A DNA stretch of 64,000 nt. Source: Pectinatus haikarae (lineage in GTDB: Bacteria; Bacillota; Negativicutes; Selenomonadales; Selenomonadaceae). Made by a program: the position numbers and the translations under genes. The DNA is taken from contig NZ_WIQM01000001.1 of assembly GCF_015732185.1 (NCBI RefSeq), forward strand, positions 1-64,000, written 5' to 3'. Below are positions 19,444 to 27,871 of the stretch, piece by piece. The notes under the pieces were generated by a model that saw only the letters and a list, made by a program, of their open reading frames with translations, made no database searches and had not been told where the DNA came from. Position 1 is the first letter of the stretch, and each line of letters opens with the position of its first letter.

Positions 19444-20499
19444 ATGGAAAAAAGGCTGGATCCGGATTCTTTTGATTTTCCTGTAGAAAAAATAAAAAAA
19501 GGGCTTTACAGCGATATTTATTTTCTGCGTACGCAGGCTATACTTGAGCAGGGCGGAATTAATTCGCATGTTACGGTGCAGGTTTTTCAGCGTGATTATG
19601 CAATGCTTTGTGGTATTGATGAAGCTATTGCTCTTATAAAACGATGTTCATATAATCCAAAGGAATTAAAAATAAGGGCTCTGCACGACGGTGATATGAT
19701 AGCGCCATGGGAAACGATCATGACAATTGAGGGAAATCTGGCAGACTTTATACATTTAGAAACTGTCTATCTTGGCACATTGGCCCGCCGTACTAAAATA
19801 GCTACGAATTGCCATCGCGCGGTTGAGGCAGCCAATGGCAAGCCCGTATTATTTTTTCCTTCACGCTTTGATGAGTATACGGTACAGGAAGGAGACGGAT
19901 ATGCAGCGAAGGTCGGAGGCATGAGTAATGTTTCTACTCCTGCTAATGCTATGTGTTGGGGGATTGAGGCTGCAGGTACTATCCCGCATGCTTTGATAGC
20001 TGCTTTTGGCGGTGATACCTTAGCGGCGACAAAAGCCTTTGACAAATATATGGATCCGGAGATAAGCCGTATAGCACTTGTTGATTTTAATAATGACTGT
20101 GTGAATACGAGTCTGGCGCTGGCTCGTGAATTAGGAGATAAATTAGAAGGTGTGAGACTGGATACATCTGATAAAATGGTTGATGTGTCCCTTATAGGAC
20201 AGATGGGACATTTTAAACCGACAGGAGTAAATGAGCAGCTTGTGCGCAATGTACGTGAAGCACTTGACCGGGAAGGGTTTAGTCATGTGAAAATAATTGT
20301 GTCGGGCGGATTTAATCCTGAACGCATACATCTGTTTGAACAAAATGGCGTGCCAGTAGATATTTATGCTGTCGGAAGCAGTATTTTTGCTACAAATGTA
20401 GATTTTACAGCAGATGTAGTCCTGCTTGACGGAAAGTCATGTGCAAAGGCGGGACGTCAATATATGGACAGTGATCGTCTTGAAAAAGTGGAAATGTAG
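19444..20499 (+). CDS. pncB: nicotinate phosphoribosyltransferase
   Basis: 351 residues from the ATG at 19444, chosen for its TGGGAGG site. Family features are KKGLYSDIYFLRTQ at the N-terminus, HLETVYLGTLARRT, and IIVSGGFNPERI with VDIYAVGSSIF as phosphate-binding loops near the C-terminus. The enzyme joins nicotinate to PRPP and feeds NAD salvage. The form is the short (~350) group found in Firmicutes and archaea, not the 400+ residue E. coli type. A possible regulatory hairpin precedes it. Confidence 0.88.
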   Translation: MEKRLDPDSFDFPVEKIKKGLYSDIYFLRTQAILEQGGINSHVTVQVFQRDYAMLCGIDEAIALIKRCSYNPKELKIRALHDGDMIAPWETIMTIEGNLADFIHLETVYLGTLARRTKIATNCHRAVEAANGKPVLFFPSRFDEYTVQEGDGYAAKVGGMSNVSTPANAMCWGIEAAGTIPHALIAAFGGDTLAATKAFDKYMDPEISRIALVDFNNDCVNTSLALARELGDKLEGVRLDTSDKMVDVSLIGQMGHFKPTGVNEQLVRNVREALDREGFSHVKIIVSGGFNPERIHLFEQNGVPVDIYAVGSSIFATNVDFTADVVLLDGKSCAKAGRQYMDSDRLEKVEM

Positions 20500-20759: not shown

Positions 20760-20813
20760 TGTCTCACTTTATATTTCTCCTAAATGTTTTCTAGGAAAAG
20801 GAGAAAATATATT

Positions 20814-22028
20814 ATGAGAAATCGTTGGCTTATCGCTTTATCTGCAATTGGCATTCACATCTGCATAGGCAGTGTATATGCATGGAGTGTACTTACCAAA
20901 CCGATAATGCAGCAGATGAATCTTTCCTTAAAGGAAACAACGTGGGCTTTTTCATTGGCAATTTTATTTTTAGGAATGTCGGCAGGTTTCTTGGGAAGCT
21001 TTGTTGAAAAATACGGCCCTAAAAAAAGTGGGCTCATGTCAATGAGCTTCTTCGGTATGGGAATGTTCGGCACGGCTATGTCCATAAATATGCATAATGT
21101 TTTGATGCTTTATATTTTTTATGGCGTGATAGGCGGTATCGGTTTGGGAATAGGATATATAACTCCTGTATCCACACTGGTAAAATATTTTCCCGACAAG
21201 CGGGGGTTTGCCACAGGCCTTGCCATTATGGGCTTCGGTTTTGCCAGCCTTATAGCCGGACCGCTTATGCAGTATTTGACCGCTTCATATGGACTAGCAA
21301 AAAATTTTTTATTTTTGGGATGTGCATATATGCTCGTTATGGCTTTGTCATCGCTCTATTTGAAACCTCCTGCTGAAAAACCGGAGATAAAAAGTGCAAT
21401 AAAAAGAAATGAAAAAGGACTGGATGCCCGGCAGGCCGTTCATACGTGGCAGTTTGCTGCTTTATGGTGGATTTTTTTTGTAAATATAACCTGCGGTATA
21501 GGATTATTGGCTGTGGCATCACCTATGGCTCAGGATGTGGCAGGTATGACTCCTGAGATGGCAGCGTCGATGGTGGGGATAATAGGTCTGCTCAATGGGT
21601 TTGGGCGTATATTCTGGTCTACTGTTTCAGATTATATAGGCAGGGGCTTCACATATGCAGTATTTTTCATTATAGAAATAATTGCATTTTGGCAGCTTTC
21701 GGCAGTGAATGATAGAACTTCTTTTCAATTGATCATTTTTCTTATAATAACATGTTATGGCGGCGGTTTTTCTTGCATGCCTGCCTATTTAAGCGATATC
21801 TTTGGTACACGGCAGCTTAGTGCTGTCCATGGGCGTGTTTTGACAGCCTGGGGAATGGCCGGGATAACCGGACCGGCATTAGTTTCATGGCTGCGTGAGA
21901 TTACAGACGGTTATGCGGCGACATTACAGTTTTTCGCTCTGTGTTTTGTATTGAATTTTATAATTGCAATAGTATTAAAATATAAAGGAAATACTTTGGA
22001 TAAAAGAAAGTTGAATAAGTCTGTGTAA
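20814..22028 (+). CDS. MFS transporter of the oxalate/formate antiporter (OFA) family
   Basis: 404 residues, 12 predicted spans. The start RNRWLIALSAIGIHICIGSV and YAWSVLTKPI is the OFA signature, and KYFPDKRGFATGLAIMGFG follows span 4. The loop between spans 6 and 7 is basic. OFA proteins exchange or take up small carboxylates such as oxalate and formate. Control by a ZTP riboswitch links it to one-carbon or formate supply for purine synthesis, so formate is the best guess. The ATG at 20814 has AAAGGAGAAA before it; an upstream ATG at 20784 has not. Confidence 0.88.
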   Translation: MRNRWLIALSAIGIHICIGSVYAWSVLTKPIMQQMNLSLKETTWAFSLAILFLGMSAGFLGSFVEKYGPKKSGLMSMSFFGMGMFGTAMSINMHNVLMLYIFYGVIGGIGLGIGYITPVSTLVKYFPDKRGFATGLAIMGFGFASLIAGPLMQYLTASYGLAKNFLFLGCAYMLVMALSSLYLKPPAEKPEIKSAIKRNEKGLDARQAVHTWQFAALWWIFFVNITCGIGLLAVASPMAQDVAGMTPEMAASMVGIIGLLNGFGRIFWSTVSDYIGRGFTYAVFFIIEIIAFWQLSAVNDRTSFQLIIFLIITCYGGGFSCMPAYLSDIFGTRQLSAVHGRVLTAWGMAGITGPALVSWLREITDGYAATLQFFALCFVLNFIIAIVLKYKGNTLDKRKLNKSV

Positions 22029-22117: not shown

Positions 22118-23533
22118 TTACCAATAACCAAGTACTTTCCACCATACGCCGCCGATGCCAAGCCAGATTATGATATGCATCACAGATACGCCAAAGCCGA
22201 TAGTCCACCATGTTTTTTGATCAATATAACCCGCACCAAAATATACCGGTGCAGGGCCTGTGCCAAAGTGTGTCAGGCAGCCGCATATATTTGCTGCAAT
22301 GGCGACTACAAATGCAGAAATAAAGGGTGGTGCTCCAGCAGCCGCACCGAGGGTGATCAAGGCAGCATACATTGCAGTTACGTGTGCAGACATGCTGGCA
22401 AAAAAATAATGACTGTATAAATAAATAATAAATGATAGGACTACCGCAGTGATCATGCTTACACCGATCATCTGATTTTCAAGAATAGCAGCAAACCATG
22501 GTATAAATCCCAATTTGTTCAGATAGTCAGACATGACTATAACGCCGCCAACCCAGATAAGCGTATCCCATGCTTTTTTTTCACTGATAACATCTTTCCA
22601 GGTCAAAACACGGCCTATTAGAAGAATGCATAATCCCATAAACGCTATCAGTGTGGTATCTAAATGAGTTATTGTTGTAGTAGCCCATAAAATTAAAAGC
22701 ATTACAAAAACGAAGAGAAGAATTTTTTCTCTTATGCACATCGGTCCCATTTCTTCCAGTGCTTTATTGGCAATATTTTTTGCTTCGGGAGTTTTCTTTA
22801 TTTCAGGAGGGTAGAATTTATAAAGGACATAAGGAATAATTATCAGAGCCGCTATGCCGGGGACAGAAGCTGCCACGAACCAACCGATCCATGTAATGTC
22901 AATATCGAAAACTTTTTTCGCCATAGCGACGGCTATGGGATTTCCTACCATTGCAGTTAAAAATAAGGCAGATACAACTAAATCAAGATGAAATATGCAG
23001 GCCATCAGATATGCTCCGAGCCTGCGCGGACTCTCATCAGCTTTCGAATCGAAAGCATGGGCCAGACTCTGCACGATAGGGAAAATCAGTCCGCCTGCCC
23101 GCGCTGAGTTGGAAGGAATAGCAGGTCCGATAATGACATCACTCAAAGCCAGTGAATAGACAAGCTTCAAACTGCTGTCACCGAAAGCTCTCATTGCCAG
23201 GTATGCTATACGGCGGCCAAGACCGGTTATAATGAATGCCCTTGCCAACAGGAACGCAGAGACAATCAACCAAACTGTATTGCCGCTGAAGGCTGATAAT
23301 ACCTGCGAGAATTTCATCACACCTGTTAACGCACACAACACCAGCGCGATCAGAGCGATAGTGCCCAGCTCTATGGGCTGCAGAATAAAACCTACTACTG
23401 TTCCTAAAAAAATAGCAAATAAGTGCCATGCTGCCACACTTAACCCATCTGGCGGAGGAATTATAAAACCCACTGCGACTACGCCGATTGTAAGAACAGC
23501 ACTGATGAATTTTTTGCTGCTTAAAAATGACAT
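22118..23533 (-). CDS. DASS-family dicarboxylate/citrate transporter (CitT/TtdT-like)
   Basis: 471 residues, 12 or more spans. Conserved family blocks include SAFSGNTVWLIVSAFLLARA, IIGPAIPSNSARAGG and LTHFGTGPAPVYFG. The short loop SNSARAGG and FGTGPAPV are the substrate/cation sites in this family. CitT-type members exchange citrate or tartrate for succinate. It is divergent from citDEF across a 389-bp spacer, so citrate or a related acid is the likely substrate. The ATG at 23533 follows TGAGGAGTGA and is preferred to 23548. Confidence 0.88.
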   Translation of the reverse strand: MSFLSSKKFISAVLTIGVVAVGFIIPPPDGLSVAAWHLFAIFLGTVVGFILQPIELGTIALIALVLCALTGVMKFSQVLSAFSGNTVWLIVSAFLLARAFIITGLGRRIAYLAMRAFGDSSLKLVYSLALSDVIIGPAIPSNSARAGGLIFPIVQSLAHAFDSKADESPRRLGAYLMACIFHLDLVVSALFLTAMVGNPIAVAMAKKVFDIDITWIGWFVAASVPGIAALIIIPYVLYKFYPPEIKKTPEAKNIANKALEEMGPMCIREKILLFVFVMLLILWATTTITHLDTTLIAFMGLCILLIGRVLTWKDVISEKKAWDTLIWVGGVIVMSDYLNKLGFIPWFAAILENQMIGVSMITAVVLSFIIYLYSHYFFASMSAHVTAMYAALITLGAAAGAPPFISAFVVAIAANICGCLTHFGTGPAPVYFGAGYIDQKTWWTIGFGVSVMHIIIWLGIGGVWWKVLGYW

Positions 23534-23922
23534 GATCTCACTCCTCAATATACGATTTTAAATTTTTGGAAAATTATTATCAATAATTCAAAGTAATTTT
23601 ATGATATAAATAATCAATGGAAGTGTAAAATATAAAAATATGATTGCTGACGATTAGATAATTTTATAAAATTGATATTTCAATGTTAACTCGGTCAATC
23701 ATATAATGATTAATATTTGCTATTATATTATTTGCTTTTTTTATGAATGAAAATTCAATTTTTAAATTTTACAGATATTTTTTTGTGTTTTATACTAAAA
23801 AATAGTAATACAAATTAAAAATTCTATTATTATTGTTCAAACAGGATAAAGGCAAAATGAAATTTGGAATATATTTTAGAGGAAAGATCATTGGATAGTG
23901 ATGATTTTTAGGAGGGGACGCC
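23534..23922. promoter_or_regulatory. divergent control region between DASS transporter and citDEF
   Basis: 389 bp without a gene, very AT-rich. Small palindromes occur at 23671-23684 (ATTGA-TATT-TCAAT) and 23697-23711 (AATCAT-ATA-ATGATT), which could bind a LysR-type regulator such as that at 27008. No single convincing -35/-10 pair stands out on either strand. Confidence 0.4.
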
Positions 23923-24198
23923 ATGATAAAAGTATTAAAAAAAACCGCCCAAGCAGGATTTGAAGAAAAAAATGACCTGATAGTAGAGGTTTCTCCACTG
24001 CAGGCTGAAAGCGGAATAATTATTGAATTGCAGTCACCGGTAAAGAATCAATACGGCAGTCATATTGAAACATTGATAAAAGATACGGTAGCAGCTGAGG
24101 GTTTTTCTGATGTTCAAGTCAACGTATCGGATAAAGGCGCATGGGATTATACGATAAAGGCAAGGATAATTGCCGCACTTGAAAGGGGGATGGCATGA
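23923..24198 (+). CDS. citD: citrate lyase acyl carrier (gamma) subunit CitD, lacking the carrier serine
   Basis: 91 residues, aligning along its length with CitD (AQAGFEEKNDLIVEV near the start; VNVSDKGAWDYTIKARIIAAL near the end). In characterised CitD the start has the motif AGTLESxD, where the Ser (Ser14) holds the phosphoribosyl-dephospho-CoA group. Here the matching stretch is AGFEEKND, with Lys at that place and Asn next to it. The subunit should therefore not be modified in the known way. Ribosome site AGGAGGGG. The stop overlaps the citE start (ATGA). Confidence 0.85.
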   Translation: MIKVLKKTAQAGFEEKNDLIVEVSPLQAESGIIIELQSPVKNQYGSHIETLIKDTVAAEGFSDVQVNVSDKGAWDYTIKARIIAALERGMA

Positions 24199-25106
24199 TG
24201 AATGATCCGAAGACAAGACTGCGCAGGACAATGATGTTTGTGCCGGGCAACAGTCCTAAAATGATCAATTCAGCGGATATTTACGGAGCGGACAGTCTTA
24301 TGTTTGATGTGGAAGATGCCATTGCCGTCACGGAAAAAGATACGGCAAGATATCTTGTTGCCAATGCATTAAAAACACTTAAGTTCCATTCGGAAACTGT
24401 GGTAAGAATAAATCACCCTACACAAACGCCTTTTGGCATCGATGATTTGAAAGTGATTTTACCGGCGAAACCGGATATGATACGTCTGCCAAAAGTGGAA
24501 GATGTTTCCGAGGTAGAATTGGTCACAGGTGAAATTGAACGAGTTGAAAAGGAAAACGGCTGGCCGGAAGGCACAATAAATATTATCGGCGCTATCGAAA
24601 GTGTCAAGGGGCTTTATAATGTAAGAGAAATCTGCAGGCATCCGCGTTTGATCGCCATTGCATTAGGTGCCGAGGATTTTATAGCCAATTTGAAAACCCA
24701 GCGGACGAAAACGGGAATAGAACTTTACTATGCTCGTTCTCAGATATTAATGGCGGCACGCGACGCTGAAATTCAATGTATGGATACGGTGTTCTCAGAT
24801 GTGAGAGATATGGAAGGGTTTGAACGTGAGGTGACTAACAGCCGCGATATGGGATTTGACGGTAAGTCTGTCATACATCCAAAGCAAATTACGGAAGTTC
24901 ATCGTATCTATACCCCGGATGATAAACAGTTGACACATGCACTTAAAGTTTTGGCGGCGTTTGATGATTCTCTTAAAAATCATAAAGGAGTGCTGGCTGT
25001 CGATGGCAAGATGATCGACGGGCCTATTGTCGTCAGGGCGCAGCGCATAGTCGATCAGGCGAAGGCAGCAGGGATTGATGTTGAAAAAAAGAGGGAAGAA
25101 ATATGA
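24195..25106 (+). CDS. citE: citrate (pro-3S)-lyase beta subunit CitE
   Basis: 303 residues. The start RLRRTMMFVPGNSPKMINSA and MFDVEDAIAVTEKDTAR are the family's CoA and metal-binding blocks (Glu and Asp ligands in IGAIES and GAEDF). CitE cleaves citryl-ACP to oxaloacetate and acetyl-ACP in the CitDEF complex. It begins in an ATGATG doublet overlapping the citD stop and ends in an ATGA overlap with citF, so the three are translated together. Confidence 0.92.
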   Translation: MMNDPKTRLRRTMMFVPGNSPKMINSADIYGADSLMFDVEDAIAVTEKDTARYLVANALKTLKFHSETVVRINHPTQTPFGIDDLKVILPAKPDMIRLPKVEDVSEVELVTGEIERVEKENGWPEGTINIIGAIESVKGLYNVREICRHPRLIAIALGAEDFIANLKTQRTKTGIELYYARSQILMAARDAEIQCMDTVFSDVRDMEGFEREVTNSRDMGFDGKSVIHPKQITEVHRIYTPDDKQLTHALKVLAAFDDSLKNHKGVLAVDGKMIDGPIVVRAQRIVDQAKAAGIDVEKKREEI

Positions 25107-26659
25107 AAAATGCAGTAGGACGTGAAATCCCGGCTCATATTTCGGGAATAAGTAACACAAGACTCTATGAAGGCACGAGTGCGTATACTCCTGCACATAC
25201 CGGGGCGGGTAAAAAGCTTCGTGCGGGAAAACCACATACAGATAAAATTTTAAAATCAATAGATGAGGCAATAGAAAAAACAGGTTTGAAAAACGGGCAG
25301 ACTATTTCTTTTCATCATCATCTACGCAACGGTGATTATGTAATGAAAATGGTGATGGAATGTATTGCCGCAAAAGGAATAAAGGATATTACCATTGCGT
25401 CCAGCTCGCTTAGTCCATGTCATGACTTTTTGATAGATTATATTAGGGACGGCACAGTGACAGCTCTGGAATCCAGCGGACTCAGAGGGCAATTGGGAAA
25501 ATATTTGACAAAAAATCCGGGGGCTTTAAAAAAGCCGACAATAATACGTTCGCATGGTGGGAGAGCCAGAGCAATTGAAGCGGGTGAACTGCATATTGAT
25601 ACGGCGTTTATGGCCGCACCGACATGTGACAGACAGGGGAATGCTACGGGGCGCATCGGCAAATCAGCGTTTGGGTCCATGGGATATGCCATGATCGATG
25701 CCGCTTATGCGGATAAGGTGGTGCTGATCACGGATAATCTTGTGAATGACCCGGTATATCCGTATAGTATTCCGCAGACACAGGTGGATTATATCGTTCC
25801 GGTGGAAGCGATAGGTGATCCTGAAGGCATCGCATCGGGGGCAATACGCATAACTAAAAGTCCTACACAATTGCTCATAGCTGAATATGCGGCTGAAGTG
25901 ATGGATGAAACGGGTGTTTTGAAGGATGGTTTTTCCATGCAGATGGGCAGCGGCGGAGCTTCTTTGGCAGCGGCCAAATTTATCCGTGAAAAAATGGAAG
26001 ATCAGAATATTACGGGCAGTTTTGGTATAGGCGGTATAACTGGGATTTTTGCCGATATGCTTAAGGACGGGCTGTTTAAGGCTTGTTATGATGCTCAGAC
26101 TTTTGATACGACTGCCGTAAAGTCATTATCGGAAAATCCTAATCATATTGAAATATCCGCTTCTTTTTATGCCAATCCATGGAATGCCGGACCAATAGTA
26201 AATGATCTTGATGTGGTAATATTGAGCGCCACGGAAGTTGATCTTGATTTTAACGTAAATGTTATCACTGATTCCAATGGTATATGCATGGGTGCATCGG
26301 GCGGGCACAGCGATACTGCGGCAGGAGCGGCACTTACTATTATTGTTGTGCCCTTGATACGGGGCAGACTGCCAATGATCAGAAATCATGTCCAAAATGT
26401 TGTCACACCGGGAGATGACGTGGATGTCATCATCACTGAAAGAGGGCTTGCCATTAACCCTAAACGCACAGATCTTATCGAAAAACTCAAAGACAGCAAG
26501 CTGCCCATAATGAAGATCGAAGATCTGCAGCAGCTGGCATATGCTTTTGTCGGCAAACCGGAGGAAATAAAATTGAGCGATGATGATAGGGATATAGTGG
26601 CTGTGGTAGAATATAGAGACGGCAGTATACTTGATGTGATCCGTAAGCCGTTGGTTTGA
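25103..26659 (+). CDS. citF: citrate lyase alpha subunit CitF (citrate:acetyl-ACP transferase)
   Basis: 518 residues, usual length about 510. Conserved blocks are ISFHHHLRNGDYVMKMV, FMQMGSGGASLAA-type glycine loop (SMQMGSGGASLAAAK), and GASGGHSDTAAGA near the C-terminus. CitF swaps acetyl for citrate on the carrier. The genes for the ligase (citC) and prosthetic group synthesis (citX, citG) that usually accompany citDEF are absent from this window. Citramalate lyase is built the same way and cannot be excluded. Confidence 0.92.
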   Translation: MKNAVGREIPAHISGISNTRLYEGTSAYTPAHTGAGKKLRAGKPHTDKILKSIDEAIEKTGLKNGQTISFHHHLRNGDYVMKMVMECIAAKGIKDITIASSSLSPCHDFLIDYIRDGTVTALESSGLRGQLGKYLTKNPGALKKPTIIRSHGGRARAIEAGELHIDTAFMAAPTCDRQGNATGRIGKSAFGSMGYAMIDAAYADKVVLITDNLVNDPVYPYSIPQTQVDYIVPVEAIGDPEGIASGAIRITKSPTQLLIAEYAAEVMDETGVLKDGFSMQMGSGGASLAAAKFIREKMEDQNITGSFGIGGITGIFADMLKDGLFKACYDAQTFDTTAVKSLSENPNHIEISASFYANPWNAGPIVNDLDVVILSATEVDLDFNVNVITDSNGICMGASGGHSDTAAGAALTIIVVPLIRGRLPMIRNHVQNVVTPGDDVDVIITERGLAINPKRTDLIEKLKDSKLPIMKIEDLQQLAYAFVGKPEEIKLSDDDRDIVAVVEYRDGSILDVIRKPLV

Positions 26660-27007: not shown

Positions 27008-27871
27008 ATGGAAGATCGGGATTGGCAGATAATTCAAAGGATATATATAGAAAAAAATATAACTAAGGCCGCACAGGCATTATATATGTCGCAGCCGGCG
27101 CTGACTGCCCGTTTGCAGCATATTGAACGTGAATTCAATGTGCGGATTGTTCACCGCAGTACAAGAGGCATTCAATTTACACCGGAAGGGGAATACCTCG
27201 TTGAAAAGGCCGCGCAGATGACGGATCAAATGCGGCATATAAAAAATGAAGTGCAGGAGCTTTTCAGTGAAAATGCCGGGACATTGGAGATAGGGGCGTC
27301 AAATTATCTTACTATGTATGTTTTACCTGTATTGCTTGAACAATTTAAAAAAAAGTATCCTGCGGTAAAATACAGAGTAGTAACAAGCTGGAGCAAAAAC
27401 ATTTTTACATTACTCTATAATCAAAAAATACAAGTGGGTTTTGCCAGTATAGATTATGGCGGGTGTAAAAATAAGCATCTGATGTTTGAAGAGCCCGTGT
27501 ATATGGTTTACAGAGAACCGTTCGCTATGAGTGACTTGCCCGAACTGCCGCGGATAGAGTATGACAGCGATTATCTGCTGAAAGGGCAGTTGGACAAGTG
27601 GTGGAGGGAAAATTTTAAGAAACCACCTCAGGTAAGTATGCATGTGTCAAATTTAGAGAACTGCAAACGAATGGTTGTTCATGGACTGGGATATGCTCCT
27701 TTGCCTGCGCATATTATCAGGGAGCACAATGATATACTGCACAGGCTGACAATAGTAGAAAAATCAGGTGATCCTATAACACGAAAAACTTGGATGATTC
27801 ATAGTGATCTCAATAATGATATGCCGATTGTCAAATTGTTTGTTGACTTTGTGAAAGAATACACATTGTAA
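27008..27871 (+). CDS. LysR-family transcriptional regulator
   Basis: 287 residues. The N-terminal helix-turn-helix is NITKAAQALYMSQPALTARL, followed by QHIEREFNVRIVHRSTRGI; the effector-binding domain begins near residue 90 (TLEIGASNYLTMYVLPVLLEQF). The same strand and close position behind citDEF suggest it senses citrate or a related acid and controls citDEF and the DASS transporter. LysR genes are more often divergent from their target; here it is downstream with its own spacer. Confidence 0.88.
   Translation: MEDRDWQIIQRIYIEKNITKAAQALYMSQPALTARLQHIEREFNVRIVHRSTRGIQFTPEGEYLVEKAAQMTDQMRHIKNEVQELFSENAGTLEIGASNYLTMYVLPVLLEQFKKKYPAVKYRVVTSWSKNIFTLLYNQKIQVGFASIDYGGCKNKHLMFEEPVYMVYREPFAMSDLPELPRIEYDSDYLLKGQLDKWWRENFKKPPQVSMHVSNLENCKRMVVHGLGYAPLPAHIIREHNDILHRLTIVEKSGDPITRKTWMIHSDLNNDMPIVKLFVDFVKEYTL

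Follow-up and report, generated by a model that had tools for sequence, protein, structure and literature searches.

Citrate lyase is the textbook example of an enzyme bound to a covalent CoA-derived cofactor that has biosynthesis and loading enzymes of its own. The closest described system is the ATP-independent citrate lyase CitDEF of E. coli and Klebsiella (EC 4.1.3.6), in which a serine of CitD is the attachment site for phosphoribosyl-dephospho-CoA. The citramalate lyase of Clostridium tetanomorphum is reported to have a homologous three-subunit design, and the clusters described for it include CitCXG and the methylaspartate pathway (PMC4682846), neither of which was recognised at the locus presented here. 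For malonate decarboxylase, MdcC has been described as the subunit that bridges the complex (PMC5534430). Malyl-CoA lyase, CLYBL and RipC stand alone or lie in unrelated clusters, with no CitD or CitF.

The locus lies in a 64,000-nt stretch of DNA from Pectinatus haikarae (contig NZ_WIQM01000001.1, positions 1 to 64,000), hereafter the window. It resembles the E. coli and Klebsiella system in its three subunits and their order (citD-citE-citF), in the catalytic residues of CitE and in a CitF that scores over its equivalog cut-off. It differs in having Lys for the attachment Ser, in a genome without citC, citX and citG, and in a CitE that stays under the citE equivalog cut-off (361.8 versus 443.4 bits). 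With malyl-CoA lyase, CLYBL and RipC it has in common the Mg- and substrate-binding residues and the proposed use of free CoA thioesters; unlike them, its CitE is encoded within citDEF and fits citE far better than RipC (361.8 versus 179.9 bits). In the variant (Ser-less) operons of our neighbourhood tables, CitE is likewise encoded together with CitD and CitF. The features of the locus are as follows.

22118..23548, minus strand: DASS-family sodium-coupled anion symporter, divergent and upstream (TIGR00785, 414.5 bits; cut-off 198.6)
23910..23917, plus strand: AGGAGGGG, read in the letters, likely ribosome-binding site of citD
23923..24198, plus strand: citD, Ser-less citrate lyase gamma subunit, 91 aa (profile matches over cut-offs)
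23953..23976, plus strand: AGFEEKND loop of CitD, residues 11-18, in place of AGTLES[SGN]D (ungapped alignment)
23968..23970, plus strand: AAA codon of Lys16, at the position of the prosthetic-group Ser (sequence read and alignment)
24195..25106, plus strand: citE, lyase beta subunit, 303 aa, start overlapping the end of citD
25103..26659, plus strand: citF, alpha subunit, acyl transferase, 518 aa, start overlapping the end of citE
27008..27871, plus strand: LysR-family regulator (CcpC-like), downstream of citF (PF00126 and PF03466)

The LysR-family gene, whose top NCBIfam model is NF058504 CcpC (214.6 bits, below its cut-off of 400), is likely to be the regulator of the citDEF operon. The DASS carrier is a possible importer of citrate or a dicarboxylate. 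Upstream of it lie genes for a nicotinate phosphoribosyltransferase (19444-20499) and a lactate-type MFS transporter (20784-22028).

CitD and its Lys16

The window CitD is a genuine member of its family, matching NF009726 with 81.6 bits (cut-off 65), TIGR01608 with 74.4 bits (cut-off 63.5) and PF06857 with 81.6 bits (cut-off 25.1). An earlier note on this DNA had claimed that the attachment Ser is absent and replaced by Lys. This was confirmed: the AGTLESGD motif of E. coli K-12 CitD (locus L143) aligns without a gap to AGFEEKND, its Ser facing Lys16. Throughout the CitD alignment this column holds Ser in 33 of 33 Ser rows (32 labelled canonical, plus E. coli) and K (17) or T (2) in the 19 variant rows; since the groups were named by this very residue, the counts are descriptive and do not amount to a test. 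When the alignment was scanned for a replacement Ser specific to the variants, none was found, Ser38 being common to both groups, and an alternative attachment Ser in CitD is ruled out on this ground. A sequencing error or frameshift at Lys16 is also ruled out by the recurrence of these residues in independent species: AGFEEKND is present in P. cerevisiiphilus, whose CitD is 80% identical to that of the window, and in P. brassicae, and it recurs in unrelated families.

In an AlphaFold model of CitD (pLDDT 93.6), the AGFEEKND loop (13-18) lies between strands 9-12 and 19-25. Searches of PDB sequences with CitD returned no CitD relative, but a fold search did yield one. The best solved match, MdcC (5vit_C), has the same fold (Z 11.3, rmsd 2.0 Å, 86 residues), with residues 2-90 of the model superposing on residues 11-97 of chain C. 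By the offset of this superposition, Lys16 would correspond approximately to residue 25 of MdcC, and Ser25 is described as standing at the tip of a comparable loop (PMC5534430). The two proteins differ in that MdcC retains its Ser and the modifying enzymes; at the sequence level, the window CitD matches the MdcC model TIGR03130 weakly, with 16.1 bits against a cut-off of 84.1.

Cofactor genes in genomes with either kind of CitD

The operon contains citD-citE-citF only, so that the absence of citC, citX and citG stated in the earlier note was borne out, and the genome as a whole gave a similar picture. A profile search of the window genome (99.57% complete) returned no match for CitX (PF03802) or CitG (PF01874). 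For citC (PF08218) there was a single 22.5-bit match covering model positions 9-64 of 182, a weak partial match of a kind present in most genomes searched, and none at E 1e-10. Among 60 relatives of the window genome, those of Pectinatus (G000-G003) have CitD, lack CitX and CitG, and show citC partial matches of 22-25 bits only.

A panel of 37 genomes was chosen, comprising the Pectinatus species with CitD and the genomes with the top-scoring CitD. All three cofactor genes were found in the same six of them (G120, G121, G131, G347, G377 and G378), and all six also carry a Ser-CitD. The remaining 31 have Ser-less CitD only and none of citC, citX and citG; for panel genomes of family f35 without a fetched locus, the Ser-less call was made from near-identical profile scores. 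In G377 and G378 a complete Ser-type citC-X-D-E-F-G cluster exists alongside the Ser-less CitD; G347, G120 and G121 also carry a Ser-type citDEF, and in G131 a Ser-CitD was read too. Of CitG in G347 there is a fragment, placed where a contig ends. A Fisher test of the 6/31 split gives p = 4e-7, although, the panel being chosen and the genomes related, the within-genus contrasts are the better argument. These agree with the split, both in genus g102 (G377 and G378 versus five others) and in genus g95 (G347 versus G346). Outside the panel, the two kinds of CitD coexist with the full set of cofactor genes in three genomes (G041, G053 and G055).

There are exceptions to this correspondence. One MAG (G044, 77% complete) has a Ser-less CitD and no CitX or CitG, yet a strong citC match. 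Seven genomes of families f38 and f111, from other Bacillota outside the Negativicutes, lack a CitX match, and in five of these (G510, G587, G714, G501 and G531) a Ser-CitD was read; a missing CitX is thus no universal mark of a Ser-less CitD. Three f38 operons (L181, L182 and L183, from G714, G501 and G531) combine Ser-CitD with a short CitE of 234-236 aa and no CitX match; they possibly represent another carrier route or another enzyme. In G668, whose family also includes the Ser-less G709 and G747, the CitX reading is broken by TGA and TAG (C1:2367379-2367857), and the CitD there is Ser-bearing (L180, AGTLESGD). A search for MdcG_N (PF20866) gave no match; the control was likewise empty, making this result uninformative.

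Distribution of Ser-less CitD and history of the serine

A profile made from eight variant CitDs was run on 380 genomes of the class Negativicutes, 116 of which contained a CitD match at E <= 1e-12. Motifs were read as sequence only for the fetched loci of the best-scoring group. They are AGFEEKND in Pectinatus and G053, AGFEQKND in G055, AGFNEKQD and AGFDEKQD in a Megasphaera MAG and its family, VGFEETND in G041, VGFEEKND in G131 and IGVEETND in G044. Family f35 (28 genomes, with loci fetched from part of them and the others scoring alike), probably the Veillonellaceae, has AGFDEK[NQ]D. Near the C-terminus the Ser-less subfamily typically has AWDY where others have ALDC. AWDY relatives with Ser exist as well, namely L088/L134 (VGFVESND), L133 (AGMLESCD) and L092 (AGTLESSD). 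In a search of plasmids, all matches fell below 60% identity.

The Sporomusaceae loci L088/L134, from a genome with citC, citX and citG, are Ser-bearing and nested inside the Ser-less clade. Together with the CitE tree, this nesting indicates that the Ser did not change in one clean step. One origin of the loss, with all Ser-less sequences in one clade, was rejected by the CitE tree (p-AU 0.001) and by the CitF tree, on which the presence or absence of Ser takes 5 changes, at least 4 of them forced by supported branches. By these comparisons, Ser was lost repeatedly, and outside the Negativicutes too. In a sample of the phylum, 17 of 398 genomes match at E <= 1e-20; family f124, outside the Negativicutes, provided AGTEEKND (G747) and AGTDEKND (G709), with no CitX in either genome. 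Three distinct lineages have Lys at the Ser position: the Negativicutes GAWDY clade, G709/G747 and the second CitD of G379 (VGSENKGD, L177). A further genome, G734, has no CitX and an ambiguous VGTPDASD, and was excluded from the counts of Ser and no-Ser.

Several individual loci depart from the common arrangement. L177 (G379:C19:4001-12000) is a divergent second citDEF followed by a possible LysR regulator. At L079 (G041:C1:280000-285000), CitD reads AGTLEPND, in which Pro takes the place of Ser; neither CitE nor CitF was found in the 5 kb covered. In P. frisingensis (L093 and L094; also G002:C39 and C40), citD is in two pieces at two contig ends. A second locus of P. cerevisiiphilus, L090, in the same genome as L085, carries a distant Ser-less citDEF with a CitMHS symporter.

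Mechanism, substrate and competing explanations

CitE and CitF had been described as normal in the earlier note. For CitF this stands (TIGR01584, 698.3 bits, cut-off 501.5; PF04223, 622.9 bits; solved homologues 2hj0 and 1xr4). For CitE it stands in part. Six catalytic residues (E40, D41, R71, E135, D161 and D275) are kept in the window and in 19 of 19 variant rows; they correspond to residues reported in malyl-CoA lyases, which are free-CoA-thioester enzymes (PMC3832036). The protein is recognisably CitE (TIGR01588; PF03328, 227 bits), though not a standard one, its score being under the NCBI equivalog cut-off as given above. Lys22 of CitE, found in 19 of 19 variant rows versus Gly or Ala in all 13 Ser rows compared (13 of the 32 canonical rows), is a possible contact to the CoA phosphate. 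As a general compensation for the loss of Ser it was rejected: it also occurs in the Ser-bearing L088 and L133, and the corresponding position, in the N-termini, is Ser and Thr in the independent Ser-less L178 and L177. No compensating residue common to all Ser-less lineages was found.

In our view the product of the operon is probably a carrier-free citrate lyase acting on free acetyl-CoA and citryl-CoA, in which CitD is kept as an unmodified bridging subunit; free CoA use, citrate as substrate and the bridging role are what we infer from the comparisons described here. CitF, a family II CoA transferase, would act on free acetyl-CoA, converting acetyl-CoA and citrate to citryl-CoA and acetate. 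CitE would cleave citryl-CoA to oxaloacetate and acetyl-CoA, the latter going back into the cycle, while unmodified CitD would bridge CitF and CitE. As free CoA would be acetylated by ordinary metabolism, CitG (making the cofactor), CitX (attaching it) and CitC (acetylating it) would be unnecessary, which would explain the joint loss of all three genes. The parts of such an enzyme are already known, since CitF/MdcA-type transferases are reported to take CoA esters in vitro (PMC9813914) and CitE-like lyases to act on free CoA thioesters (PMC3832036). Among the three readings offered in the earlier note, the use of free CoA thioesters is the best fit.

What is new is a conserved natural form without the attachment residue or the three cofactor genes that nonetheless retains CitD. 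In the literature searched (titles and abstracts, with subscription journals mostly outside), no description of a Ser-less CitD was found; a transcriptome study of Veillonella dispar has citrate lyase among the differently expressed genes, without detail on CitD (PMC10100942). A natural form devoid of attachment site, cofactor pathway and loading ligase would represent a carrier-protein enzyme reverting to a free-CoA enzyme. With it, the question whether CitD serves as carrier or as scaffold becomes testable. Moreover, genomes annotated with an "incomplete" citrate lyase for want of citC, citX and citG may still use citrate.

A more elaborate reading, unlikely in our estimate, sees the Ser-to-Lys change as a repeated functional switch. 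Lys16 occupies the point at which the phosphoribosyl linker formerly emerged from CitD; there it would hold the 3'-phosphate of free CoA, making CitD a non-covalent CoA-docking subunit that still shuttles citryl-CoA between CitF and CitE. Its occurrence in three separate lineages favours such a role, whereas the main argument against it is the Thr of G041 and G044.

The earlier note had also proposed another acid, such as citramalate. A carrier-free lyase using free CoA thioesters of a different 2-hydroxy acid, likeliest (S)-citramalate, which would give pyruvate and acetate, seems to us rather unlikely. According to PMC4682846, homologous enzymes probably catalyse the cleavage of citramalate and are annotated as citrate lyase, and some class I fumarases act as mesaconases. 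The operon at L134 does have a two-gene class I fumarase (alpha/beta) nearby, which could equally be a mesaconase, leaving room for mesaconate/citramalate; the CitE score below the equivalog cut-off points the same way. However, L134 itself has Ser, and neither a glutamate mutase nor a methylaspartate ammonia-lyase turned up in the part of the operon neighbours scanned. Beside the window operon no methylaspartate-pathway genes were recognised, the fumarase subunits occurring at the relative L134 only. Furthermore, carriers of the CitMHS type (TIGR00784) adjoin citDEF in six operons of the family: over the cut-off at the variant L082, L089, L090 and L125 and at the Ser-bearing L133, and slightly below it at L128. 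The operon of the Megasphaera MAG (L087) adjoins a 2HCT-family carrier and pyruvate carboxylase, that of L129 a PEP carboxykinase, and the independent Ser-less operon L178 (G747) occurs with aconitase and isocitrate dehydrogenase. These neighbours favour citrate and oxaloacetate over citramalate, so that the proposal of another acid is weakened, with the L134 fumarase still speaking for it. DASS carriers are found in the window and at L127 and L134; those beside Pectinatus operons, like the DcuC carriers there, do not prove citrate. L134 also encodes a carboxylase/decarboxylase subunit close to oxaloacetate decarboxylase alpha (712.2 bits; cut-off 718).

The aconitase and isocitrate dehydrogenase of L178 are compatible with CitDEF running in reverse, so as to form citrate from oxaloacetate and acetyl-CoA in bacteria that would lack citrate synthase. 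In principle, citrate lyase catalyses a reversible reaction. We nevertheless hold this improbable, the adjoining transporters and LysR regulators suggesting uptake and induced catabolism. Some L178 proteins resemble a tripartite tricarboxylate transporter by eye; two were tested and had no NCBIfam match.

Another attachment, a further suggestion of the earlier note, is not supported. Here CitD would be acylated on a different residue or by way of a different group, a differently modified Lys16 for instance. The Lys at the former Ser position in most variants, across three separate lineages, could be read in its favour. Yet an acyl-lysine would not be an activated carrier; within one clade the residue is Lys or Thr (the latter in G041 and G044), and L088 has Ser; the variant rows of the alignment show no newly conserved Ser, Thr or Cys; and Tyr76 is also found in 5 of 33 Ser-CitD rows. 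No modifying enzyme was found. We regard such an attachment as very improbable.

Least credible of all is that CitD is a decaying relic which CitE and CitF no longer need: although it evolves faster within Pectinatus (80% identity, versus 95% for CitE and 89% for CitF), purifying selection acts on citD (dN/dS from comparing the window with P. cerevisiiphilus: 0.12 for citD, 0.014 for citE and 0.048 for citF), its core residues are invariant across families, and in 6 of 7 genomes of genus g102 it is fused in frame ahead of CitE. The open frame of this fusion measures 422-433 aa in these 6 genomes, and about 414-427 aa at the fused loci L115, L120, L121, L122 and L125.
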